Source of the DNA: a bacterium OL-1
GTDB taxonomy: Bacteria; Actinomycetota; Coriobacteriia; Coriobacteriales; Atopobiaceae
Direction of reading: 5' to 3'
DNA length: 64,000 nucleotides
Assembly: GCA_000752675.2 (NCBI GenBank)
Contig: LM994625.1
Span: 54,102-118,101, forward strand
The notes under the pieces were generated by a model that saw only the letters and a program-made list of their open reading frames with translations, was not told the origin of the DNA and did no database searches. Positions 35,009 through 47,120 of the stretch are shown piece after piece. Position 1 is the first letter of the stretch. Every line of letters begins with the position of its first letter. The translations under genes and the position numbers were made by a program.

Positions 35009-35716
35009 CTACAAGCCGTACTTGGCGACGGCGTGTCGGATGCGCGCGCCCCACGGCACCCAGATCGCCGCGAGAAAGCCCACCGTTGCCGCTCCGTGCA
35101 GGCAGTCCCACGGCAGGCCCGCCGCGTACGCCGCAACGATGGCCGGCCAGGTGATGGGCTCCACGTAGCCAATCACGTACCAGCCGTTGAGGATCGCCCC
35201 GTACATGAGCGCCGAGAGAAACCCGTACACGTACAGCGCGCCGCGCCGCTCGAGGAGGCCGTGCTCCCCCAGCACGCCACCAAGGTAGCCCACGAGCCCC
35301 CACGCGTACATCTGCCAGGGCGTCCACACACCCTGGCCAAAGAAGAAGTTCGAGACCAGCGCCGCCAGCGCACCCACCATAAAGCCCTCGCGCCGGCCCA
35401 GCGTGGCCCCCGCCACGATAGTTATGGCCGAGACGGGCTTGACGTCGGGGATGGGCGCAAAGAGGATGCGACCGGCGGCCGCAAGCCCCGCGAGCGTGGC
35501 GGTAGGCATGACTTGCCTAAGCGCCGGCCGCGACGCCTCGTAGCTGGCAAGGAAGAGCCCTACGCAAAGGACTACCAACAGAAGCGTGAGCCCCGCGGCC
35601 GCCTGCACGCCGTTTACGGCACACGCCACGAGCACCGCCGGAACGGCGACAATCGAGGGCACCTCGAGCGCGGCAAAGACGCGCTGTCGCTTGGTGCCTG
35701 TGGTGCTCGCTGTCAT
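35009..35716 (-). CDS. ECF transporter S component (substrate-binding membrane protein)
   Basis: The 235-residue protein has about six membrane helices and the block LFAPIPDVKPVSAITIVAGA with LGRREGFMVGALAALVSNFFFGQG and TPWQMYAWGLVGYLGG, typical of ECF S components of the larger cobalamin/queuosine-like group. S components bind the vitamin and dock on the EcfA-A'-T module. The matching ATPase and T subunit are encoded 640 bases away on the same strand, separated by one plus-strand gene. The start at 35716 is the ATG nearest the first helix with AAGGCGAG ahead. The substrate is inferred to be a corrinoid from the DUF4430 neighbours. Confidence 0.82.
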   Translation of the reverse strand: MTASTTGTKRQRVFAALEVPSIVAVPAVLVACAVNGVQAAAGLTLLLVVLCVGLFLASYEASRPALRQVMPTATLAGLAAAGRILFAPIPDVKPVSAITIVAGATLGRREGFMVGALAALVSNFFFGQGVWTPWQMYAWGLVGYLGGVLGEHGLLERRGALYVYGFLSALMYGAILNGWYVIGYVEPITWPAIVAAYAAGLPWDCLHGAATVGFLAAIWVPWGARIRHAVAKYGL

Positions 35717-35857
35717 GATTCTCGCCTTCTGCCGACTGCAGCCCAACATGCAACACTCTATGACACAACGACCGCCCGCTTGCGGGAAACCGTCACCAAG
35801 CTGCGCCGAATTGCCTAAGATGGGCATGTGCCGCACCCATCGACCGGAGGAGGCCCC

Positions 35858-36298
35858 ATGCTCTACGTTGGAAACTTTAGCTACAACGATGACAAGGACC
35901 AGGCAAACAACTACTGTCTCATGCCGTGCGTGGTTGAGGCGGACTCGGCGGACGAGGCCCTGGAGAAGTTTGCGTCAAAGTTCGCGAGCGTTCGCGCCGA
36001 GTCTGACCTGCTTGAGGGCGCAAGCGAGATCTATCTCGACTCCCTTGTGGAGCTGGAGGGCGTTCCGCAGGATCCGGTGATCACCCAGTGGCAGAAGATC
36101 GTGCCCGCCATCGACGGCCTGTGCTCAGTGACCAGCGCGCTTCCCGACACGAGCGTGGACGAGCTCGCTGCCAGCGCATACGGCTGGGGTGAGGATGACG
36201 GCGACGAGATTGAGCTCGAGGACATGGAGGAGCTTGACGGCCTCTCGGAAGATGACCTCGAGGAGGAGGGCATGGAGGAGCCGTTCCTCACTTTCTAG
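35858..36298 (+). CDS. Small acidic protein, function unknown
   Basis: The 146-residue product starts MLYVGNFSYNDDKDQANNYC after GGAGG at 5 bases, and ends in a strongly acidic tail (GEDDGDEIELEDMEELDG and DDLEEEGMEE). The first 100 residues, with VEADSADEALEKFASKFASV and EIYLDSLVELEGVP, look like a compact alpha/beta domain. I do not recognise the family. It is transcribed opposite to the surrounding ECF genes. Confidence 0.75.
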   Translation: MLYVGNFSYNDDKDQANNYCLMPCVVEADSADEALEKFASKFASVRAESDLLEGASEIYLDSLVELEGVPQDPVITQWQKIVPAIDGLCSVTSALPDTSVDELAASAYGWGEDDGDEIELEDMEELDGLSEDDLEEEGMEEPFLTF

Positions 36299-36350
36299 CC
36301 AGCAGCTGACGCCGCACTGACGGCGCGGCTGACGGCATGCAGCCCACAAC

Positions 36351-37778
36351 TTACGCGTGGTAGAGCCAGGACCCGGCGAGAAACTCGTCGGGTCCTTCCG
36401 TGCAGGTGACGGCCCCGTCAAAGAGGAGCGACACCGAGTCTGCCACGGCAGAGACAAACGCAAGGTCGTGTGTGGCGAGAAGAACGCTTCTCCCCTCCTG
36501 CCGCAGCTCTTGCACAAGACGTGCAAGCTTGGTGCGCGCCGCCGCGTCGAGCCCCTTGGTGGGTTCGTCCAAAATGAGCAGGTCTGGCTGCGTGAGCAGC
36601 AGCTTTGCAAACGCAACGAGCTGCTGTTGGCCGCCGGAGAGGTCGAGCGGGTTTCTCGCTGCCACGGCGGTGAGCTCCAGTCGCTCCATCATGGCTGTGA
36701 CCTGGGCCTCTCCGTAGCCCGCACCCTTTGACCAGAGCATGAGCTCCTCGCGGACGGTCTGTGCCGAGAGAATCGCGCGCGGGCTCTGCGGCAGGTACGC
36801 CTGGGACGCCGCATGGGGACGAGAGAGACGCCCGCGCTGCGGTGCAAGCGCGCCGCACGCAAGCTGCAAGAGGGTCGTCTTGCCCGAACCGTTGCCGCCC
36901 ACAATGGCCGTCACCTCGCCCTGGGGCGCCACGAGGTCCAGCCCGCGCAGGACCCAGTCGGCATCGCGTCCGTAGCGGAACCATGCGTCGCGAAGGGAAA
37001 GCGCAGGTTTCTCGCCGCTGACGGCAGGCTTGCTGCCTGCGGGTGCCACGTCTTCTGGCCTAAACGCGCAGGCAGCAACCGCATCGTCGAGCGAGAGCTC
37101 GCGCACGCGGCCGTCCTCAACGCGAAAGGCGCAGGTGGCCACGTCGCGCATGGGCCCCGGCGCGTGCGTTGCCACCACAACGGTGACCCCAAGCTCGCGG
37201 TTTGCGCGGAAGAGCATGGCAAGGAAGTCCTTCTCGGCAACCGGGTCGAGCATCGAGGTGGGCTCGTCCAGGAGCAGCAGGCGCGGACGCATGGCAAGCG
37301 TTGCGGCAAGGGCGAGCATCTGGCGCTGGCCGCCGGAGAGGCTTGCCGTCTGTCGGCGGAACCACGGCTCCATGCCAAAGAACATGCAGGTCTCGGCCAC
37401 GCGACGGCGCATCTCGGGTACGGGAGTTCCCAGGTTCTCCAGGCCAAAGGCCATCTCGTGCCACACGGTGTCGCAGACAATCTGGCTGTCAGGACTCTGG
37501 AAGACAAGGCCCACGGTCTGGGCGGACTCCACCGGAGAGAACTCGCGCACATCCTTGCCAAAAGCGAGCACGTTACCGACGAGCGTACCTGTAGGTGACA
37601 CCTCTGGCTTGGCAAGGCGCAGAAGCGTCGACTTACCGGAGCCCGTACTGCCTGTGAGCAGCGCAAACGCACCCTCGGGCACGGCAAGCGAGACGTGATC
37701 CAAGACCGGCGCGGGGTTGGGCTCGGTGTCTGTTGCGGGATAGGAGAAGCTCACGTCCCTAAACTCGAGCGCGCTCAT
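36351..37778 (-). CDS. ECF transporter ATPase, two fused ATP-binding domains
   Basis: The 475-residue protein fuses EcfA and EcfA'. Domain 1: Walker A GSTGSGKST, signature LSGGQRQML, Walker B LLLLDEPTSMLD. Domain 2: GGNGSGKTT, LSGGQQQLV, LLILDEPTKGLD. Both keep all ATPase motifs. QSPDSQIVCDTVWHEMAFGLENLG is typical of ECF ATPases. The ATG at 37778 overlaps the EcfT stop as ATGA with GGGGAGGG before it, so the two are translationally coupled. It powers uptake by the S component encoded downstream. Confidence 0.92.
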   Translation of the reverse strand: MSALEFRDVSFSYPATDTEPNPAPVLDHVSLAVPEGAFALLTGSTGSGKSTLLRLAKPEVSPTGTLVGNVLAFGKDVREFSPVESAQTVGLVFQSPDSQIVCDTVWHEMAFGLENLGTPVPEMRRRVAETCMFFGMEPWFRRQTASLSGGQRQMLALAATLAMRPRLLLLDEPTSMLDPVAEKDFLAMLFRANRELGVTVVVATHAPGPMRDVATCAFRVEDGRVRELSLDDAVAACAFRPEDVAPAGSKPAVSGEKPALSLRDAWFRYGRDADWVLRGLDLVAPQGEVTAIVGGNGSGKTTLLQLACGALAPQRGRLSRPHAASQAYLPQSPRAILSAQTVREELMLWSKGAGYGEAQVTAMMERLELTAVAARNPLDLSGGQQQLVAFAKLLLTQPDLLILDEPTKGLDAAARTKLARLVQELRQEGRSVLLATHDLAFVSAVADSVSLLFDGAVTCTEGPDEFLAGSWLYHA

Positions 37779-38668
37779 GCGACCCTCCCCCACCGCACGC
37801 GTTGCCCCAGGTCAAGCACCGTGGGGAGAAGCGCCAGCGCGGCGTACGGCACGTAGCCCCACCAGGCAACCAGACGGGGCATGGTGGGATAGAAGCGCCA
37901 CTGAGAGCAGGCAACGTAGACGAGAACTGCACTGGTTACCGCGAGCAGCCCAATTCCTGCAAGCGCGAGCGCGTCAGACGTGCGAAAGGAATCCGGCAGG
38001 TAGCGGCTGCGGCGGTCCGTGGCGCCCCAGCCGCGTGCGCGCATGGCGTCGGAGCGCTCGATGGAGTCCTCCATCGACCAGCTCATGAGCTGGTCCGCCA
38101 CACGCACGCCGCGGTCGCGCGAGCCCTGCGGAGCGGCTGCCGTGGTGGCAAGCGTGGCTGCGCGCACGGACTGAGACCTCTGCATGAGCTGCGGCACCAG
38201 CTGCGCCGCCATCGAGGTCACGAGCGTCACCGTGGGGAGCGCGCGGGCGCCCAGCTGCAGCAGCCGGTCCTGCGTGAGTACGCAGGCAGCGTCCTCAAAC
38301 CACAGGACCACCGCCACCAGAAGCGCTCCGGCGCAGGCGCCGTAGGCAATGCTCTCCTGGTAGATAGCCATGGGCCCAAGCTGCGCCACCAGCGTGGAGC
38401 CAGATGCCGAGAAGAGCGGGTTGGCCACGGCGACAAGGGCCACCATGGGGAGCTGCCAGCGAAGACCCTCAAGCGTGCGTCGCCACCCGCGCGCGGCGAA
38501 CGAGAACGCAAGCGCGCCCATGAGAGAGATGCCCACACAGACCGGCTGCATCGCAAAGATGGCGATGAGGATGGTGCCGGCGAAGTAGGCTGCCGGCACG
38601 GCCGGGTGGCAGGTGTCGAAGGCGGTATGTGTGTCTCGCATGGTCAGCATGTGACGAGTATGACGCAC
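37775..38668 (-). CDS. ECF transporter T component
   Basis: The 297-residue membrane protein has several helices and the cytoplasmic coupling helices of EcfT: the Ala-Arg-Gly signature in DAMRARGWG, and VRVADQLMSWSMEDSIERSD before it. It links the two ATPase domains to the S component. The start is uncertain: GTG at 38668 or ATG at 38650 or 38641. It begins 16 bases after the DUF4430 gene, in one operon: giant surface protein, DUF4430 protein, EcfT, EcfAA'. Confidence 0.88.
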   Translation of the reverse strand: MRHTRHMLTMRDTHTAFDTCHPAVPAAYFAGTILIAIFAMQPVCVGISLMGALAFSFAARGWRRTLEGLRWQLPMVALVAVANPLFSASGSTLVAQLGPMAIYQESIAYGACAGALLVAVVLWFEDAACVLTQDRLLQLGARALPTVTLVTSMAAQLVPQLMQRSQSVRAATLATTAAAPQGSRDRGVRVADQLMSWSMEDSIERSDAMRARGWGATDRRSRYLPDSFRTSDALALAGIGLLAVTSAVLVYVACSQWRFYPTMPRLVAWWGYVPYAALALLPTVLDLGQRVRWGRVA

Positions 38669-38684
38669 TTTCCGATCTCTGACG

Positions 38685-39890
38685 CTATGCCGACGTGACG
38701 TAGACCCACGTCACCGCATCGCTATCAGAGAGCGTGCAGGCGCCGGCAGAGTAGCTGGGGTAGCTGCCGTTGACCGCGTACTTCCAGCCGCTCTCGCCGC
38801 CCTGGTCCTTCTCGGCGTACCCGTTGATGGCAGCAACGTAGACGCCCATGGCCGTACTGCGCGCGTTGACGCTGGCACCTGTTGCCACCAGAGCGTCGTA
38901 TGCCGTGGCGCCTGGGTTGAGCGAGACGGCGTACGAGCTGGACGAGCCCCCGTCGGCGCGGGCGTCGATGGTCACGGTGACGCGAACCTTGGCGTCTTGT
39001 GCGGCGGAGCTGGAGGAGCCGCTTCCGGACTGCGTGCCGATTGCTGACGAGGAGCTGCTAGAGCCCGAGGAGGAAGCACCCGTGCCGGAAGTGGTGCTGG
39101 TACCAGACCCGGTAACGCCCACTGTCCCGGAGCTGACGTCCTTCTGACGCGCTGCGACGTCCGAGGCGGAGAGGTTCTCGCCCGCTGATGTCACAGTGGC
39201 GTCGATGGAGACGGCCGTGCCATCCGGAAGTGTGGGTGCGGTGCCCGCAAACTGCGAGACGTCACCGGTGTCCAGCTGGGCATACGCGTTGCCAGAGATG
39301 CCGTAGCCGGTTGTTGCCGAGAGAAGCGTGGCCAAGCCACCCGTGGTAGGGGCGCTGTCCGTGGGCATGGTCACGGCCATGCGCACGGCACCGGAGCCGT
39401 CCTCGCAGATCCAGGTGACGCTGGGGATGCCCACGTCCTGCTCGGAGGCCCAAGTGGCAAGGGCCGCGGAGCGCTGGGCACAGGCAAGAGCCATGTCTGT
39501 GGGCGCGTCCGCGCTTGCTTCCTCGACCCAGATGCCATCCGCAGAGAGAACCACGTGGGCGGCGTCCTTCTCGAGAGAGACGTCCGTGCCGTCAAACTGG
39601 AGCGACGCGAGTGCAGCGTAGACGTCGTCCGTGGTGACGGTGGCCGTCTGGGGCGCCTCCTGCGAGGAGGCGGTGTCCTGACTGGTAGCCTGGTCCGTCT
39701 CGTCTGCAGTGGTCTGGAACGCTGCAGAGCCCGTTGCCCAGGCAAGCGGGTCGCCGCCCTGTGCGTAGACGGACATTGCCCACACACAGAATGCGATGAG
39801 TGCTGCAGCGAGAGCCGCAAGGATCACCCTGACAGTGCGCTTGCCGCCAGCTGACTGCTGGCCGTTTGTCGGCGTGCCGTTGTCTGACAT
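38685..39890 (-). CDS. Membrane-anchored DUF4430 protein
   Basis: The 401-residue protein has an N-terminal membrane anchor (about 20-43, VRVILAALAAALIAFCVWAM), an extracytoplasmic region, a Ser/Gly/Thr-rich linker and a C-terminal DUF4430 domain from about residue 300 (VRVTVTIDARADGG, NPGATAYDALVATGASV, ESGWKYAVNGSYPSYSAGA, SDAVTWVYV). DUF4430 is related to the C-terminal domain of transcobalamin. It directly precedes the ECF genes and abuts the giant surface protein, so it could be the handover protein to the S component. That role is inference. Confidence 0.85.
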   Translation of the reverse strand: MSDNGTPTNGQQSAGGKRTVRVILAALAAALIAFCVWAMSVYAQGGDPLAWATGSAAFQTTADETDQATSQDTASSQEAPQTATVTTDDVYAALASLQFDGTDVSLEKDAAHVVLSADGIWVEEASADAPTDMALACAQRSAALATWASEQDVGIPSVTWICEDGSGAVRMAVTMPTDSAPTTGGLATLLSATTGYGISGNAYAQLDTGDVSQFAGTAPTLPDGTAVSIDATVTSAGENLSASDVAARQKDVSSGTVGVTGSGTSTTSGTGASSSGSSSSSSAIGTQSGSGSSSSAAQDAKVRVTVTIDARADGGSSSSYAVSLNPGATAYDALVATGASVNARSTAMGVYVAAINGYAEKDQGGESGWKYAVNGSYPSYSAGACTLSDSDAVTWVYVTSA

Positions 39891-42800
39891 CTAGCCGCGC
39901 CTCCCCTCGGTGACATCGCTCTTGTCGCGGCGACGCGTGGCAAGCAGCAGGATAAGCAGCGCGGCACCCACGCAGGTGCCCACGATGGGCCAGATGGGAG
40001 GGCCCGCCTGCGCCGCCGAGTCAGTTGCGGGCACCTCGCCGGTAACCGCGTCGTCCTTGTCACCAACGGAGGTGACGCTTGTCACGTCCTCGGATGTATA
40101 GCTGCCCAGAAGCGAGCCGTCCTCTGACGAGGAGGTGCTGGCAGTTGTGGCGGAGCTGGCGGCAGGCGTGCTGGTTGCGCCGTTGCCGCTGACGCCACCC
40201 TTGCCGGTAGCTGCGCCGTTGCCGCTGCCGGCGGCGCCGCCCGTGGAGCTCGAGCCACTCTGGCCGCCGTTGCCGCCCTGAGCGCCGGTGCCGCCTGCGG
40301 AGCCGCCGTTGCCGCCCTGGCCGCCCTGGCCCTTCTCGCCCGGCACCGTTGTGGTGGCGCCGGCGTCCAGCTTGAATAGGGTGCCGGAGTCGTTGAAGAA
40401 GTAGAGGTTGCCGCTTGCGTCGCAGGCGATGGAGCTCATGCAGTACTGCCAGAGGTCGTTTGCGGGCTGGTAGAGCGTGGTTGCCTCGGCGTCGCCAAGG
40501 CGGTATGCGTACACGCCGCCGGGCTTGCCGTTGCAGGTGAAGTACGCGTAGGTGTTGCCGTCGGCGGCTACGCTCACCAGCGGTGCGCTCTTCACGTCGC
40601 CGGTTCCAACCTGACCCTCCACGCTGGTCGTAGGCACCAGGGCCTCGTGCTTGACGCTCATGGACGCAAGGTCAATCACAAAGAGCGCGCCGCGCGTCAC
40701 GTCTGCGGAGGAGGACCCGCCCACGTAGAGCAGGCCGTCACAGATGGTGGGCGACGAGGTGGAGTACGAGCCAAACCTCACACTGCAGCCGACCGTCAGA
40801 GAGCCGTCAGCACGCAGGTAGAGCTCGTGCAGCACGCCATCGGTCGTGACCGCGTAGGCCACGTTGCCGCTTACTGCTAGCTGGGCGCGGCAGCGCGTGC
40901 CCAGATCGACCGAAGAGACCTCGCGCCCCGTTGCCGCGTCAAGCAGCGAGACCCGCCCGGCGTCGTTGGCGGTGAGCACGCCCGCGGATGTGGGCACGGC
41001 GCCCGTCCAGTAGTAGCCTGCGTCCGTTCCCTCGTGCGACCACACAAGGCTGCCGTCAGCCAAGCTCACGCAGGCCACGTAGCCTCCGCAGGAATCGCTG
41101 CCGTCAGGGGCCACGGTCGAGAAGTACGCCTTGCCGTCACGCACGGTGATGGACGAGAGGAGCTGCTGGTCAACGGCCTTGCCGCTCGAGCTGGTCGAGG
41201 TGGGAAACGCCGCAGAGACCCAGAGCGTGGTCAGCATGTCCGCGGTGAGCGCCTGAATGCGACCACCGTGCAGAGGCACAAGTATGAGACCGTCGGCGTA
41301 CTGCAGGCGCGCAGTGGAGTCCACGCTTGCGGCCAGGCGAGCCTCGTCGAGAACCACGCCGGTGGACGCGTCACGACGATAGAGCCGTGTCTGCGCGGCG
41401 TCATATACCTCGCCGTTCACGATAATCGCGTCGCTCGCGTTGACGTACATGGCAGTCGTGAGGCGCGACTGCGCCCAGTCGAGCTTGGCGTAGGTGCCGG
41501 AACCAGGCACGGGCGTCGAGAGCCCGCGAACCACACCCGTCTCGCCTGTACCCTTGTAGCCGGGCCAAGCTGCGCTCAAGCTGGTAGGACGCGTGGCCGT
41601 TGGGTCAATGACCAGGGCGTCGCTCTTGGGAAGGCTGTCAGAATCCGTGCAGTAGTACCACACGACCTCGTCGCCGTTGGCAATGTTCACGCTGCTGGCA
41701 CCAACCTGCGAGGCAGCGCCGTTCACGAACAGGTGCCAGTATGCACCCGTCGTGGAGTCCCAACCCAGCTCGCGGCCGTCCACGGGCGAGGTGATGGTGC
41801 TCAGGTAGTAACCCCAGGTGCTGGTGGACGAGGAGTGCGTGAGGCCCTTCTCGGCAAACGCCGCCTCGGAGAGGTCGGCGGCGGTGGAGCCCTCCACCAG
41901 GGTGAGAGACGTTGTGTCCGCCCACACCTGATCGAGACCCGAGGCGTCCTTGCCAATCACCTTGACCGAGCCCGTGACCTGTCCCGGCAGAGAGTCGCCC
42001 CAGGCGGAGTAGTACCAGACGACCTTGTCGCCCTCCTTGAGGACGTAGTTCGAGGCCATCACGGTTGCGGACTTGCCGTTGATGAAGAGCTGCCACCACT
42101 TGCCGGTTGCGGCGTCATAGCCAAGCGAAGTGCCGTCCTTGGTGAAGGTGTAGAGGTCGGCGTCGTAGGTGATGCCGTTGGCGTCAAGGACCTGCTTGGT
42201 GAGATCCGCCGCGGTGGTGCCCGGCTCGACGGCAAGCGAGGTTTCTGGCGCCCAGCTGACACTGGCCCCGGAAGCGTTGGGGCCAATGACCGCGCAGCTA
42301 GCGGTAACCTGCTCCGGCGCGTCCTGGCCAGAGGTGCCCGCCACCGTGAACGTGGCCGAGACATCCTGGTTCACAAGGCTTGCCAGCTTTGCCTTGAGCT
42401 GGTCGCTCACCATGGGGTCGTCCTTGTAGAACTCGTAGTAGGCCTGGAAGCGCTCGTCAGCAAGGCGCGAGATTACGGTAACCCGTGTGTTGTCGGTGGG
42501 CTTGGTGTAGGTGAGAAGCTCGTGGGAGATCACGTCCGGGCGGCTTGACTTGAAGGTGCGCCAGGACATACCGCCCATGTCGCTGTATCCGGGCAGGTCA
42601 ACCAGCACAATGCCGGGGTGCGCGGACTGCGTGTCGCGGTCGTGCGCCCAGGCAAGGTTGCCGGAGGCATCACGATAGGCGCCCAAGAACGGGCGCAGGT
42701 TGCCCGTCACGTTGGCGGCACTCTGTCCGTCGAGAAGCGCCAGGGCATACCCCGCCTTGGCGTCCTGCATGAGCGAGACCGCCTCGTCTATCTCCTGCTC

Positions 42801-45620
42801 GCTCACGGGCGAGAGCGTGAACTCAAGCGTCTTGGTGGCCGTGACCTCGGGGTTCGACTTGTCAGTGACCGTGCAGGCTATGGCAACAGTGCGCGCCGTG
42901 CCCAGCGGGCGCACGACCGTGGCGTGGTAGCCGTTGAAGCTAACGAGGGGGTCACTGCTGCTGTAGGAGACGGTGTAGTACTTGCCGTCCACGCCAAGCG
43001 TGCGCGTGGTGGGAAGCTGGAGGTCGCCCGAGACCGCAGTCTGGTCCACGGCGGCACCGGTAGAGAAGGCCTTGACCTTGTCGTAGGTGAAGCCCGCCTC
43101 GACCTTGCCTGCGAGGGCAGCCTGAGCTGCGGCAACGGCTTCGGGGTCCGCCTTGACAGTAATTGGGAAGTCCTTGGTAACCGTGACATCGGGCATACCG
43201 TAGCCCGTGAAGGACACGGCTGCCGAAAGCGTCACCGGCGTGTCGGCCGAGCCGCGCGTGGGCGTTGCCGTGAGGGTGCTGTCCCAGCTCTCGCCGGTCA
43301 CTTTCACGGAGCTGTCACTCGCGGTCCACGATGCGCTGGCGCCGCTCAGGCTTGCCGGCAGCGTGAAGGCCTGCGTCACGGAATCTGCGGAGTCACCATC
43401 GGCAAAGCCCAGCGTGATGGCATCGGCCTTGGCCTGGAGCACGGCGCGCGCGGCGTTCTCGTCCCAAGGCACCTGGAAGGTGCGGTTGGGGGTGAACGTT
43501 GCGGTCTCGTCGCCGCGGGTGAGCGCGAACGTAATCGAGCTCACCGTCTGGAGCGAGGACATGTTCCAGTTAGAGACCTTGCTCGTGTCACACGAGAAGT
43601 ACGTGATGGCGCCGTTGTCCGCGTCTGCGGTGGAGATGCCCACGGTGGCGTTGCTGTTGGTGTCCTGGAACGAGACGCTGGTCACGCGCACAGCGAGGCC
43701 CGTGGTGTCCACGCCCTCCTCCGCAAGCTTGGCGAGAAGCACGTCGTTCACGTTGGTATCCGTGCCGTACTTGAGCGTTGGCCGCCAGTTCTCGTTCTGG
43801 AGGCGCGCGATGGCGCCCGCGAGCGTGGCGCTATCCGCAACGGGCTGGTCGAAGGCCTTGGAGACGGAGGTGGCACCGCTCGTTGCCACGACCTTGAGGT
43901 ACTTTCCCGCAGCTGCCTGCGGAACCTCGATGCTGGCCGACGTGCAGCCGTCAAGCGGCTGCCAGTCTTCTGCCGATGCGTCGGCGGCGTTGGCAACGTA
44001 CCACTGCAGGGTCACGCCATCCTTGCCGGTAACTTCCACGTTGCTGCCCGAGAGCTGCGAGGCGTAGACCGTCGCGGTTGCGGTGGAGCCGGTGAGAAGC
44101 GTGCCCGAGGTTGGCGACACCAGGACGTGGTGGAGGTCATAGCTGCCCACAGCCTTGACCTGGACCTTCTCGCTCGTGGCAGATGCCATGAGGGCACTGC
44201 AGCTGGCCCACACGTACGCGCCCTCGAGTGACGAGGAAAGCGCAAGGGTAGTTCCGGTGGCGCCGTCCTCTGCAGTGAGCTCGCACGTGTTGGTGCCGGC
44301 CGCGTCGTCCGCCGCATACCAGGTGCACGCGAGCTTGGCGTCCGAGGGGAGGTCCGTCTCGTACGTGCCCCAGCTTGAGGCCTCCTGGTACTGGGGCTGC
44401 GCCGTGAGCGTGGCCCCCACCTGCGCGTTTGTGACAGAGGACGAGAGCTTCACGCTCGAGACGTCATAGCCGCCCGCAAGCGCTACGGGGCCAACGGGGT
44501 CCTGCGTGCTGGTCCCGTAGTAGGACGGCACGCTGGTGGAGACCACGGAGTTGCTGCTCGTCGCCTTGACGCGCAGGTACATGCCGAGAAGCGACGTTCC
44601 GTCGGTGGTCTGCTCGGGAACGGTAAAGGTGGCGGAGGTGGCACCGGGGATGTCGGTGAACGCGGAGTCATCTGTCGTGCTGCTTGCCGCCCACTGCCAC
44701 TGGTAGTGCACCACGTCCGCGGAGGTCGTCTGGGTGTAGGAGCCGGTGTAGGCCGTGGCGGTGATGGTCTGCCCAACCGTCGCGCGGCCAGAGGCGTCGA
44801 CGGTCACCTTGTACAGCGTGACGGCGCCGGCCTCCTGCACGGGGCCAGCCACGGAGCTCTTGGCTGCACCGTAACCGCCGTCTGCGCTCGCGTAGACGTA
44901 CTTGCCGAGAAGGTCCGAGGTCACGTTAAGCGTTGGACCCGTAGCTCCGGCGATCTTCTCGCCCGTGCCGTACGCCGAGTCGCTGGCGTACCAGGACCAG
45001 GTGACGCTGGCGTTTGAGGTGGCGTCGGCGCCGCTTGCGTCCTTGGCCGTTGCAGAGAGGGTGTCGCCTGGGGCGAGCGTGCCGGTGTTGCTCAGCGACA
45101 CGCTTACGAGGTTGACCGAACCCGCGGCGGCAACCTTGTTGCGGCTGCGTGTTGTGCGAGAGGAGCTGCCGTCGGCGGTGGTTATCGTGCAGCGCACATA
45201 GCGGCCGGCGTAGCTTGCCAGCGGGAGAGACTGCGTGGTGGCGCCCGGGATGTCTTCCCAGGTAGAGTTGTCAGAGCTGACCTGCCACTGGTAGGTGAGG
45301 GAGGCGGGGTCGATGGGGGCGCTGGCGCCCTTCTCGCGCGCCCACGCCCACAGCGTGTCCGAGGCGGCGTAGGCGTAGGTGCCACCCGTGGAGCTTGCGC
45401 TGGTGGTGAGGTAGGTGGAGTAGATGCTTGCCGACGCGGCATCGGAGGCGCTTGCCGCGGCCAGGGCGGCTGCCGTCGTCGCTGACGATGTATCCGCCAT
45501 GACTTCGGCCAGCGCTCGCGTGGGCACCATCGACGCCGCCGTGACCAGCGACAACGTCACCGTCAGAATGCGGTCACGCAGACACAGCCCAGACATGCCA
45601 GTGGGTTTTGTGGGTTTCAT
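39891..45620 (-). CDS. Giant surface protein: Ig-like repeats, two DUF4430 modules, PQQ-like propeller
   Basis: The 1,909-residue protein has a signal peptide (about 1-39, ending near ALAEV). Residues 45-610 hold repeated Ig-like units (patterns YTYQW/LTYQWQVS, ...GKYVYA...). Two bacterial Ig-like/atrophied domains follow. Two DUF4430 modules end near 1203 and 1323 (VWYYSAWGDSLPG and VWYYCTDSDSLPK). About 1370-1760 is a PQQ-binding-like beta-propeller (ILVPLHGGRIQAL, AYAVTTDGVLHEL, GLLYVGGSSS, NLYFFNDSGTLFKL). A Gly-rich linker (1760-1820) leads to a C-terminal membrane helix and RRR, without an LPXTG sorting motif. GGGAGG precedes the ATG. With the ECF operon downstream it may capture a corrinoid or similar ligand at the surface. 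Confidence 0.88.
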   Translation of the reverse strand: MKPTKPTGMSGLCLRDRILTVTLSLVTAASMVPTRALAEVMADTSSATTAAALAAASASDAASASIYSTYLTTSASSTGGTYAYAASDTLWAWAREKGASAPIDPASLTYQWQVSSDNSTWEDIPGATTQSLPLASYAGRYVRCTITTADGSSSRTTRSRNKVAAAGSVNLVSVSLSNTGTLAPGDTLSATAKDASGADATSNASVTWSWYASDSAYGTGEKIAGATGPTLNVTSDLLGKYVYASADGGYGAAKSSVAGPVQEAGAVTLYKVTVDASGRATVGQTITATAYTGSYTQTTSADVVHYQWQWAASSTTDDSAFTDIPGATSATFTVPEQTTDGTSLLGMYLRVKATSSNSVVSTSVPSYYGTSTQDPVGPVALAGGYDVSSVKLSSSVTNAQVGATLTAQPQYQEASSWGTYETDLPSDAKLACTWYAADDAAGTNTCELTAEDGATGTTLALSSSLEGAYVWASCSALMASATSEKVQVKAVGSYDLHHVLVSPTSGTLLTGSTATATVYASQLSGSNVEVTGKDGVTLQWYVANAADASAEDWQPLDGCTSASIEVPQAAAGKYLKVVATSGATSVSKAFDQPVADSATLAGAIARLQNENWRPTLKYGTDTNVNDVLLAKLAEEGVDTTGLAVRVTSVSFQDTNSNATVGISTADADNGAITYFSCDTSKVSNWNMSSLQTVSSITFALTRGDETATFTPNRTFQVPWDENAARAVLQAKADAITLGFADGDSADSVTQAFTLPASLSGASASWTASDSSVKVTGESWDSTLTATPTRGSADTPVTLSAAVSFTGYGMPDVTVTKDFPITVKADPEAVAAAQAALAGKVEAGFTYDKVKAFSTGAAVDQTAVSGDLQLPTTRTLGVDGKYYTVSYSSSDPLVSFNGYHATVVRPLGTARTVAIACTVTDKSNPEVTATKTLEFTLSPVSEQEIDEAVSLMQDAKAGYALALLDGQSAANVTGNLRPFLGAYRDASGNLAWAHDRDTQSAHPGIVLVDLPGYSDMGGMSWRTFKSSRPDVISHELLTYTKPTDNTRVTVISRLADERFQAYYEFYKDDPMVSDQLKAKLASLVNQDVSATFTVAGTSGQDAPEQVTASCAVIGPNASGASVSWAPETSLAVEPGTTAADLTKQVLDANGITYDADLYTFTKDGTSLGYDAATGKWWQLFINGKSATVMASNYVLKEGDKVVWYYSAWGDSLPGQVTGSVKVIGKDASGLDQVWADTTSLTLVEGSTAADLSEAAFAEKGLTHSSSTSTWGYYLSTITSPVDGRELGWDSTTGAYWHLFVNGAASQVGASSVNIANGDEVVWYYCTDSDSLPKSDALVIDPTATRPTSLSAAWPGYKGTGETGVVRGLSTPVPGSGTYAKLDWAQSRLTTAMYVNASDAIIVNGEVYDAAQTRLYRRDASTGVVLDEARLAASVDSTARLQYADGLILVPLHGGRIQALTADMLTTLWVSAAFPTSTSSSGKAVDQQLLSSITVRDGKAYFSTVAPDGSDSCGGYVACVSLADGSLVWSHEGTDAGYYWTGAVPTSAGVLTANDAGRVSLLDAATGREVSSVDLGTRCRAQLAVSGNVAYAVTTDGVLHELYLRADGSLTVGCSVRFGSYSTSSPTICDGLLYVGGSSSADVTRGALFVIDLASMSVKHEALVPTTSVEGQVGTGDVKSAPLVSVAADGNTYAYFTCNGKPGGVYAYRLGDAEATTLYQPANDLWQYCMSSIACDASGNLYFFNDSGTLFKLDAGATTTVPGEKGQGGQGGNGGSAGGTGAQGGNGGQSGSSSTGGAAGSGNGAATGKGGVSGNGATSTPAASSATTASTSSSEDGSLLGSYTSEDVTSVTSVGDKDDAVTGEVPATDSAAQAGPPIWPIVGTCVGAALLILLLATRRRDKSDVTEGRRG

Positions 45621-45947
45621 ACCCGCCTCCCTGTGATCTGCTCCCTTGGGAGCATCGAGGGCAGGCAGGGCCGTCGAGTGGCGACGGTAGCCTCACGGCG
45701 CAGCACCAGCGGTAGCGCGGCGCGCGCATCTGAGCACAGTTCTGGTTGCTGACCCGGAGTAGAACCGGGATCCATTTGCAGGCCTCACAGCTGCCCAAAC
45801 CGTGCCCTCGGTTTGAATGTTGTCTGAAGTATAGACGAGAGCCGTCGGCACTTCTCGCTGCGCCGTCGTCGCGCAACACATTCGGCTGTGATTGTGTGCC
45901 GCGCACAGGTCACAGCACGGGAATCTTAAGCCTGAAACTTTTACTCT
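45621..45947 (-). promoter_or_regulatory. Structured leader of the surface-protein/ECF operon
   Basis: TATACT (-10-like, minus strand) lies near 45833, giving a leader of about 200 bases. The leader has stems AAACCG/CGGTTT, a GGATCCCGG.../CCGGGTC hairpin and CTCCC/GGGAG just before the ribosome site. I tested for a cobalamin riboswitch by eye and could not place the B12 box securely, so no riboswitch is claimed. Confidence 0.4.
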
Positions 45948-46195
45948 GCACAAAAATGCTCTATCGGACGGCGATTCCGAAGTCTCTGCATAAAAATGCT
46001 CTATCGTACGGTCGCTTCTGACACAGGAAATCAAAATTACAACTATAATTGCACATTTATGTATATGAACTTAATAATATTCAAAGAACTGCAATATTGA
46101 TTAAATAGTTGATGAGCATCCAGAACGACCGCCGTCCGATAGAGCATTTTTATGCCGCGAGCAGCCAGAAACCGTCCGATAGAGCATTTTTGTGC
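45948..46195. repeat. Four-copy 24-bp repeat, two inverted pairs with 40-bp period
   Basis: Direct copies at 45948-45971 and 45988-46011 and inverted copies at 46132-46155 and 46172-46195 share AAAAATGCTCTATCGGACGG (one base differs in the second copy). Starts are exactly 40 bp apart in each pair. A 120-bp AT-rich core (46012-46131) lies between the pairs. The spacers inside pairs are not conserved. No gene lies here. Confidence 0.9.
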
Positions 46196-46286
46196 AGTTC
46201 TGGCGCCAAACATTACCGGCAACTACAAAAGCGACAACCTGAGGACAGCCCAACCCAGATTTTGCGTGTCACGCCCTAGCTGCAGC

Positions 46287-47120
46287 CTACGCCTCCTCGG
46301 CGTCGAGGTGCCCCACCTGCGGGCGGTCGTGCCGCGAGGCCAGCACCAGCACCACAATCCCCGCCGCCACGAGCGGCAGGCTCAGGACCTGGCCCATCGT
46401 GAGCCAGCCGGTGCCGAGAAGGTATCCCAGCTGCGCGTCCGGAAGCCGCACGAACTCGATAAGAAACCTAAACACGCCGTACAGCATGAGGAACGTGCCA
46501 ATGAAGGTGCCCTGCGGCCGGGGCGGACGCCTCCGCGACAGCGCGAACAGCACGCAGAACAGCACCACGCCCTCGAGCAGGGCCTCGTAGAGCTGCGAGG
46601 GGTGCCGGTACACCGCGCCGCCGCTGGGGAACATCACGCCCCACGGCAGCGACGTCTCCTTACCCCACAGCTCGCCGTTCACAAAGTTTGCGCAGCGGCC
46701 AAAGAAAAGACCGATGGGTGCGCCAATGGCCGCGAGGTCGGCCACCGTGAGCACCGAGAGCTTCCAGCGCTTGCACGCAATGGTGCCGCCGACAATGGCG
46801 CCCACCAGCCCGCCATGGAAGCTCATACCGCCCTGATTGAGGGCGAAGATCTCGAGCGGGTGCTCGAGGTAGTACCCCGCGCCGTAAAAGACCACGTAGA
46901 AGATGCGCGCGCCCACAATCACGCCCACGGCAATGTCAATCATCACCGAGAGCACGTCATCGGTGGAGAGGTCAAGCTTCCAGCGCTTGGCAACGCGCGC
47001 AATCACCAGCCCCGCGCACACGAACCCCGCCAGGTACGCGATGCCGTACCAGCGCACCTGGAAGGGTCCGAGCGTAAACGCGATAGGGTTGAGCGAATGG
47101 TAGAAGTCGTTCAGCCACAC
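46287..47120 (-). CDS. lgt: Prolipoprotein diacylglyceryl transferase
   Basis: The 277-residue membrane protein has seven helices, the essential HGGLVGA motif (SFHGGLVGAIVGG) and the Lgt signature GRCANFVNGELWG near residue 145. It adds diacylglycerol to the lipobox Cys of prolipoproteins such as the product at 4009-4737. It starts with GTG after AGGTG. The NifU-like gene begins 15 bases beyond its start on the same strand, so they form a pair. Confidence 0.95.
   Translation of the reverse strand: MWLNDFYHSLNPIAFTLGPFQVRWYGIAYLAGFVCAGLVIARVAKRWKLDLSTDDVLSVMIDIAVGVIVGARIFYVVFYGAGYYLEHPLEIFALNQGGMSFHGGLVGAIVGGTIACKRWKLSVLTVADLAAIGAPIGLFFGRCANFVNGELWGKETSLPWGVMFPSGGAVYRHPSQLYEALLEGVVLFCVLFALSRRRPPRPQGTFIGTFLMLYGVFRFLIEFVRLPDAQLGYLLGTGWLTMGQVLSLPLVAAGIVVLVLASRHDRPQVGHLDAEEA

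Follow-up and report, generated by a model that had tools for sequence, protein, structure and literature searches.

Extracellular SLBB proteins fused to Ig or propeller domains, often encoded beside a second paralogue and generally within predicted CbiO/CbiQ operons, were described in 2007 by Burroughs et al., who suggested that they may scavenge B12 and traced the animal B12 carriers to bacterial SLBB proteins (accessible text of PMC1796856). The five-gene cluster reported here lies in a 64,000-nucleotide stretch of the genome of bacterium OL-1 (Atopobiaceae; contig LM994625.1, positions 54,102 to 118,101), hereafter the window. It has in common with those operons an extracellular SLBB protein, a second paralogue, Ig and propeller fusions, a CbiO ATPase and a CbiQ (EcfT-like) protein. 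As those operons are described in the accessible text, an S component, a riboswitch and the Coriobacteriia are unnamed, and these are tied together here. The general kind of system was predicted in 2007 and the cluster is a better-supported new example of it; what is added is a CbrT-type S component, the placement of riboswitches, B12-binding-domain genes nearby in some relatives, coriobacterial breadth and a possible exchange of toroid and propeller.

Three further systems bear comparison. CbrT of Lactobacillus delbrueckii (PDB 6fnp), which binds and transports cobalamin and cobinamide experimentally (accessible text of PMC5997447), is related in sequence to the S component of the window, and both belong to ECF pumps. 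However, in L. delbrueckii a single ECF module serves CbrT and other S components, and the accessible text of PMC5997447 mentions no protein for surface capture, whereas the window cluster has its own EcfT and fused EcfAA' in the operon, with linked DUF4430 proteins. Animal transcobalamin and intrinsic factor have a DUF4430-type C-terminal domain in common with the window proteins, but pair their SLBB domain with an alpha/alpha toroid (accessible text of PMC1796856), whereas the giant protein of the window carries Ig-like repeats and a propeller. Bacteroides BtuG, BtuH and BtuJ likewise provide surface B12 capture tied to import genes, and BtuG is a beta-propeller; these proteins serve outer-membrane BtuB import, however, and BtuG is seven-bladed (accessible text of PMC6143338, PMC13398666 and PMC8941943), whereas the window propeller is BamB/YxaL-like. 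No work linking DUF4430 proteins with a CbrT-type S component was found in a literature search outside which lay most subscription papers and the supplementary tables. B12 acquisition by B12-dependent Gram-positive gut bacteria is poorly mapped, and a 2019 survey, in its accessible part, treats finding the B12 transporters of many gut genomes as an open problem (PMC6593275). The locus unites SLBB surface proteins, CbrT-type S components and cobalamin riboswitches in one testable system, and bears on the origin of animal B12 carriers.

Gene order and conservation of the cluster

We consider it very probable that the cluster encodes an ECF importer dedicated to cobalamin or related corrinoids and equipped with surface capture proteins of its own. 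Sequence, fold or genome context supports each of the parts on which this reading is built: an S component resembling CbrT, an EcfT and a fused EcfAA' dedicated to it, and two surface-type, transcobalamin-like DUF4430 proteins. A corrinoid is favoured because the S component matches CbrT, the DUF4430 modules match transcobalamin-2, cobalamin riboswitches head the operons of relatives, and the S component co-occurs with the B12-binding domain PF02310. The MetH of the genome, the failure to find CobS and CbiJ in it, and toroid matches in three of 14 proteins from related operons point the same way.

The five genes lie on the minus strand in the order giant protein, DUF4430 protein, EcfT, EcfAA' and S component, as determined from ORF positions, Pfam and profiles (Table 1). 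The genome of bacterium OL-1 is 2.46 Mb in size and 99% complete, and its three DUF4430 places are all at this locus, PF14478 scoring above the Pfam cut-off in two stretches of the giant protein and one of the second protein. The giant protein consists of a signal peptide, approximately five Ig-like repeats, an aBig_2 domain, two DUF4430 modules, a propeller with PQQ_2/BamB-like Pfam matches, a low-complexity stalk and a C-terminal transmembrane anchor; the signal peptide, Ig-like repeats and anchor were assigned by eye, and no LPXTG motif was seen when the C-terminal end was read in the same way. The second protein has an N-terminal transmembrane anchor (also by eye), a middle part and a C-terminal DUF4430 module. 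Several relatives conserve its middle part (38991-39653 on the minus strand, approximately residues 80-300), for which Pfam gave no match. For EcfT, Pfam and NCBIfam searches gave no match at E<=0.1, and a profile of 29 sequences (A2) matched solved EcfT chains with a best E of 5.7e-13. The best NCBIfam matches of EcfAA' were TIGR04520 and TIGR04521, yet both fell under their own cut-offs, and cbiO TIGR01166 scored above its cut-off. The start of the S component was placed at an ATG within the listed 275-aa ORF.

Table 1. Features of the five-gene cluster, in window coordinates.
Feature	Position	Strand	Basis or remark
Giant surface protein	39891..45620	-	1,909 aa; homologues occupy same slot in relatives
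aBig_2 (atrophied bacterial Ig domain), giant protein residues 729-824	43149..43436	-	Pfam PF20578, E 9.2e-9
DUF4430 module 1, giant protein	41967..42275	-	Pfam PF14478; alignment A5
DUF4430 module 2, giant protein	41625..41936	-	Pfam PF14478; alignment A5; module profile matches transcobalamin-2, E 1.6e-4
Beta-propeller, giant protein residues ~1348-1754	40359..41579	-	Model of head; VIA-align
Likely C-terminal transmembrane anchor, giant protein; RRR after it	39936..39995	-	By eye
Second DUF4430 protein, 401 aa	38685..39890	-	Pfam PF14478, E 3e-14; homologues in relatives
DUF4430 module, second protein residues 327-398	38697..38912	-	PF14478
EcfT membrane coupling protein	37775..38668	-	Profile A2 to solved EcfT
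Fused EcfAA', two ABC ATPase domains, 480 aa	36351..37793	-	PF00005, two stretches in one chain
CbrT-like S component, 235 aa	35009..35716	-	Sequence match to CbrT 6fnp_A; S-component fold in model

The S component was found in 83 of 140 genomes of the same family, and loci from 40 of these 83 were sampled, with 80 named loci as a further comparison set. By tblastn the 40 family loci contained the S component (40), EcfAA' (39) and EcfT (38). The S component and EcfAA' share a strand in all 40 and lie within 1 kb of each other in 33 (low-complexity filter off). The first-pass annotation, made from the sequence alone, had placed every gene correctly, including a 1,909-aa Ig/DUF4430/propeller protein followed by a DUF4430 protein, EcfT and fused EcfAA'; it called the S component merely nearby, which these distances show to be an understatement. 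According to profile searches at least one DUF4430 ORF is present in 35/40 family loci and 55/80 named loci, and two or more in 23/40 and 30/80, respectively. The recurrence of EcfAA', EcfT and DUF4430 genes beside the S component in the family argues that the cluster is not a chance arrangement. No DUF4430 ORF was detected by profile in the other five family and 25 named loci, several of which end at contig ends; these include 11 of the 13 Collinsella-labelled loci, in the stretch scanned, and DUF4430 is thus not obligatory for S-component loci.

By S component, the nearest named loci are those of the uncultured Coriobacteriaceae MAG RUG11916 (98% identity) and, at 89% identity each, of Olsenella sp. 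Marseille-P4559 and Olsenella sp. KH3B4, in a list that may omit records of the genome itself; the bacterium is accordingly Olsenella-like. Relatives of the S component were found in Olsenella, Gordonibacter, Paraeggerthella, Slackia, Collinsella, Dorea and several clostridial genomes. In two operons (L057:5973-10022 and L056:11573-13732) choline-binding-repeat proteins with NlpC/P60 or YkuD domains adjoin EcfT, and no DUF4430 ORF was detected there by profile. We also noted a divergently encoded acidic protein of 156 aa (35828-36298, plus strand) between the S component and EcfAA', an arrangement that is the same in the window's genus. It has no Pfam or NCBIfam match and is present in 70 of the 140 family genomes, some of them without an S component; where the two genes share a contig they are at most 3 kb apart in 46 of 49 cases.

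Cobalamin riboswitches and B12-binding domains in relatives

No cobalamin riboswitch (RF00174) was found in the genome of bacterium OL-1 at the gathering score, nor with lax filters at 45400-46400 of the window, where the scan returned only four miRNA-family matches far under their gathering scores; with stricter filters, RF00174 was likewise not found in the eight genomes of the window's genus. Across the family it occurs in 22 of 140 genomes, 15 of which also have the S component. The riboswitch lies 4.1-12.4 kb upstream of the S component on the same strand in nine of these 15 genomes, and elsewhere or on a different contig in the other six. Eight of the nine loci were inspected, and in these the riboswitch either lies no more than approximately 1 kb upstream of the first DUF4430 open frame or overlaps its upstream end. 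Fourteen of the 80 named loci, chosen for diversity, were also scanned: a riboswitch was found just upstream of the operon in seven (Dorea, Desulfosporosinus and five MAGs with clostridial names), and none was found in the seven Coriobacteriia loci. The Desulfosporosinus locus has two cobalamin riboswitches in tandem ahead of the operon (L147:1130-1842).

The B12-binding domain PF02310 was matched in 77 of 83 genomes with the S component, compared with 32 of 57 genomes that lack it (Fisher p 5e-7, with no correction for kinship, genome size or completeness); the six remaining genomes with an S component gave no PF02310 match. In eight of the 83 a PF02310 match lies within 7 kb of the S component (G020, G033, G035, G039, G040, G051, G052 and G053), at a distance of 60 bp in two of them. 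In one locus (L067:5787-6071, from G033) the operon itself includes a B12-binding domain, part of a 538-aa frame, with EcfT on one side and the DUF4430 gene on the other. Neither a riboswitch nor B12 gene neighbours accompany the locus in bacterium OL-1 itself, this context being found in relatives only.

DUF4430 modules, propeller and toroid

A profile of 35 giant-type DUF4430 modules (A5) matched transcobalamin-2 with the E-value given in Table 1, and a W-Q-L strand is common to both. When the alignment of second-protein modules (A4) was compared with solved structures, transcobalamin-2 was recovered only at E 0.25; the best match was 3u7z, named as a putative metal-binding protein (E 0.0029), and two unrelated chains followed at E 1 and 1.5. 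An alignment of the whole head of the giant protein (A3) matched chiefly propellers, with transcobalamin-2 at E 0.069. The kinship of DUF4430 with transcobalamin claimed by the first-pass annotation therefore stands for the modules of the giant protein, and was recovered weakly for that of the second. SLBB domains of the transcobalamin clade carry a beta-hairpin insert with an aromatic ligand contact (accessible text of PMC1796856 and PMC1949818). At the corresponding place in A5, an aromatic residue stands in most aligned modules; module 2 has a WGYYL stretch there, and module 1 is gapped.

The head of the giant protein (residues 1090-1770) was modelled with a mean pLDDT of 90. According to VIA-align its propeller superposes on YxaL (7dxn_A) with Z 40.5 and an rmsd of 2.1 over 336 aligned residues, and on BamB chains with Z of approximately 33-36. 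It also matches designs described as eight-bladed, and so the modelled propeller probably has eight blades. Among the matches listed, BamB, YxaL and designed propellers predominate; the absence of BtuG from those shown excludes nothing. The list also includes mycobacterial Rv3035 in complex with FecB (9p3f), by their names a propeller and a solute-binding protein. A propeller in such a chain had at first been regarded as unusual, which did not hold up: it is present in 30 aligned relatives, and Ig and beta-propeller fusions were already listed in the accessible text of PMC1796856.

In neither the giant nor the second DUF4430 protein did Pfam match an alpha/alpha-toroid family at E<=0.1. We scanned 14 proteins from the corresponding slots of related operons, and found toroid matches in three (L147, L107 and L110; one over the cut-off), propeller matches in six (L140, L118, L119, L124, L142 and L150) and neither in five (L056, two of L057, L079 and L135). 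The protein from Desulfosporosinus (L147) combines DUF4430, alpha/alpha-toroid and cell-wall-binding domains, all above Pfam cut-offs. That from Adlercreutzia (L107) matches the toroid at E 1.4e-5 and the eukaryotic Cobalamin_bind family at E 0.0033, both under the cut-off, and that from bacterium D16-34 (L110) has toroid and DUF4430 matches under the cut-off. On the basis of these three of 14 proteins, toroid and propeller may be interchangeable in the first-gene slot of related operons.

It is unlikely, in our view, that the pump imports a corrinoid while the giant protein, as an adhesin or wall protein, merely shares its operon. BamB/YxaL-type propellers and Ig-like repeats are common in proteins without a B12 role, DUF4430 is absent from some related operons, and choline-binding-repeat proteins are encoded beside EcfT in L056 and L057; against this, the giant protein's own DUF4430 modules match transcobalamin-2, and the first gene after the riboswitch in relatives usually encodes a protein of the DUF4430/propeller type.

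Under the preferred reading of a corrinoid importer with surface capture proteins, the giant protein would be anchored via its C-terminal helix and extend outward on its Ig-like repeats, with the corrinoid bound by the DUF4430/propeller head. The shorter DUF4430 protein, itself membrane-anchored, would hand the corrinoid to the S component, and EcfT-EcfAA' would power its release into the cell. We tentatively suggest, as a possible if somewhat doubtful extension, that in these bacteria the propeller replaces the toroid of transcobalamin; the first-gene slot of related operons holds either a toroid protein or a DUF4430-propeller protein. The DUF4430 modules and propeller would then form a two-part surface corrinoid cage, a functional counterpart of BtuG that might draw cobamides from neighbours or from host carriers and feed them to a CbrT-type pump.

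Ligand of the S component and B12 use in the genome

Searched against PDB chain sequences, a profile of 39 S-component sequences matched CbrT (6fnp_A) at E 9.7e-13, the only S component at E<=10; its other two matches (E 0.75 and 1.3) were unrelated proteins. The alignment with CbrT covers 171 profile positions with one single-residue insertion and one single-residue deletion. The S protein of the window as a single query also recovered CbrT (6fnp_A, E 1.4e-9) as the only S component at E<=10. RibU, ThiT, FolT, BioY, PanT and BtuM gave no sequence match at this threshold, though all are in the PDB, and solved CbiM was matched by fold only (Z 12.3). Pfam assigned DUF6580 as the best family, followed by a riboflavin-S family at 26.6 bits against a cut-off of 26.7.

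The AlphaFold model of the S component (pLDDT 94) has eight helices, with the S fold over approximately residues 58-235 and extra helices before it. Known S components head its VIA-align list, and no Foldseek match reached E 0.001. CbrT 6fnp_A scored Z 10.2 compared with 17.1 for 4hzu_S, and BtuM and CbrT (Z 10-11) scored less than RibU, FolT and ThiT. Fold was dropped as a test of substrate, as S folds proved too alike in both Foldseek and VIA-align, and the substrate call accordingly rests on sequence. By this measure the S component is supported as CbrT-like and a probable member of the corrinoid family. The first-pass annotation had proposed comparing it with cobalamin-specific families; the S component matches CbrT and no non-corrinoid S component, the reverse of the outcome that the annotation had named as refuting. 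The suggestion of a corrinoid ligand is supported at the sequence level by this match and by the matches of the modules to transcobalamin-2, together with riboswitches in many relatives (not in the genome itself).

That the S component imports some other ligand, such as a riboflavin-like vitamin, heme or a queuosine precursor, with its likeness to CbrT and the DUF4430 modules reflecting old ancestry, appears improbable. The DUF6580 assignment, the riboflavin-S match just short of its cut-off and the several S components that outscore CbrT on fold alone would fit such a ligand, but among solved S components CbrT is the one matched by sequence, and related operons are headed by cobalamin riboswitches. 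A cobalt or nickel importer of the Cbi/NikMNQO type, possibly under riboswitch control too, is highly improbable: the subunits are CbiO-like and CbiQ-like, and B12 riboswitches precede some such operons (accessible text of PMC2667541), but the S protein matches CbrT and not solved CbiM in sequence, and neither CobS nor CbiJ was found in the genome, so that it would have little need of cobalt for making B12.

Several observations count against the corrinoid importer: a genome and a genus in which no riboswitch was found, the six riboswitch-bearing genomes where it lies away from the operon, loci in which no DUF4430 ORF was detected, six genomes with the S component and no PF02310 match, a fold that is not specific for CbrT, a FecCD-type permease, and the weak match of the second protein to transcobalamin-2. 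The permease place lies elsewhere in the genome, split over two frames, and its presence means that the cluster need not be the sole B12 route. In addition to CobS and CbiJ, a PduO-type adenosyltransferase was not found in the genome (one family searched for each). The single PF02310 match in the genome is a B12-dependent MetH, encoded on a contig other than that of the cluster, and MetH is the likely user of the imported corrinoid. This methionine synthase is split, its MetH core and its activation domain being encoded as separate proteins (L159:3037-6346).
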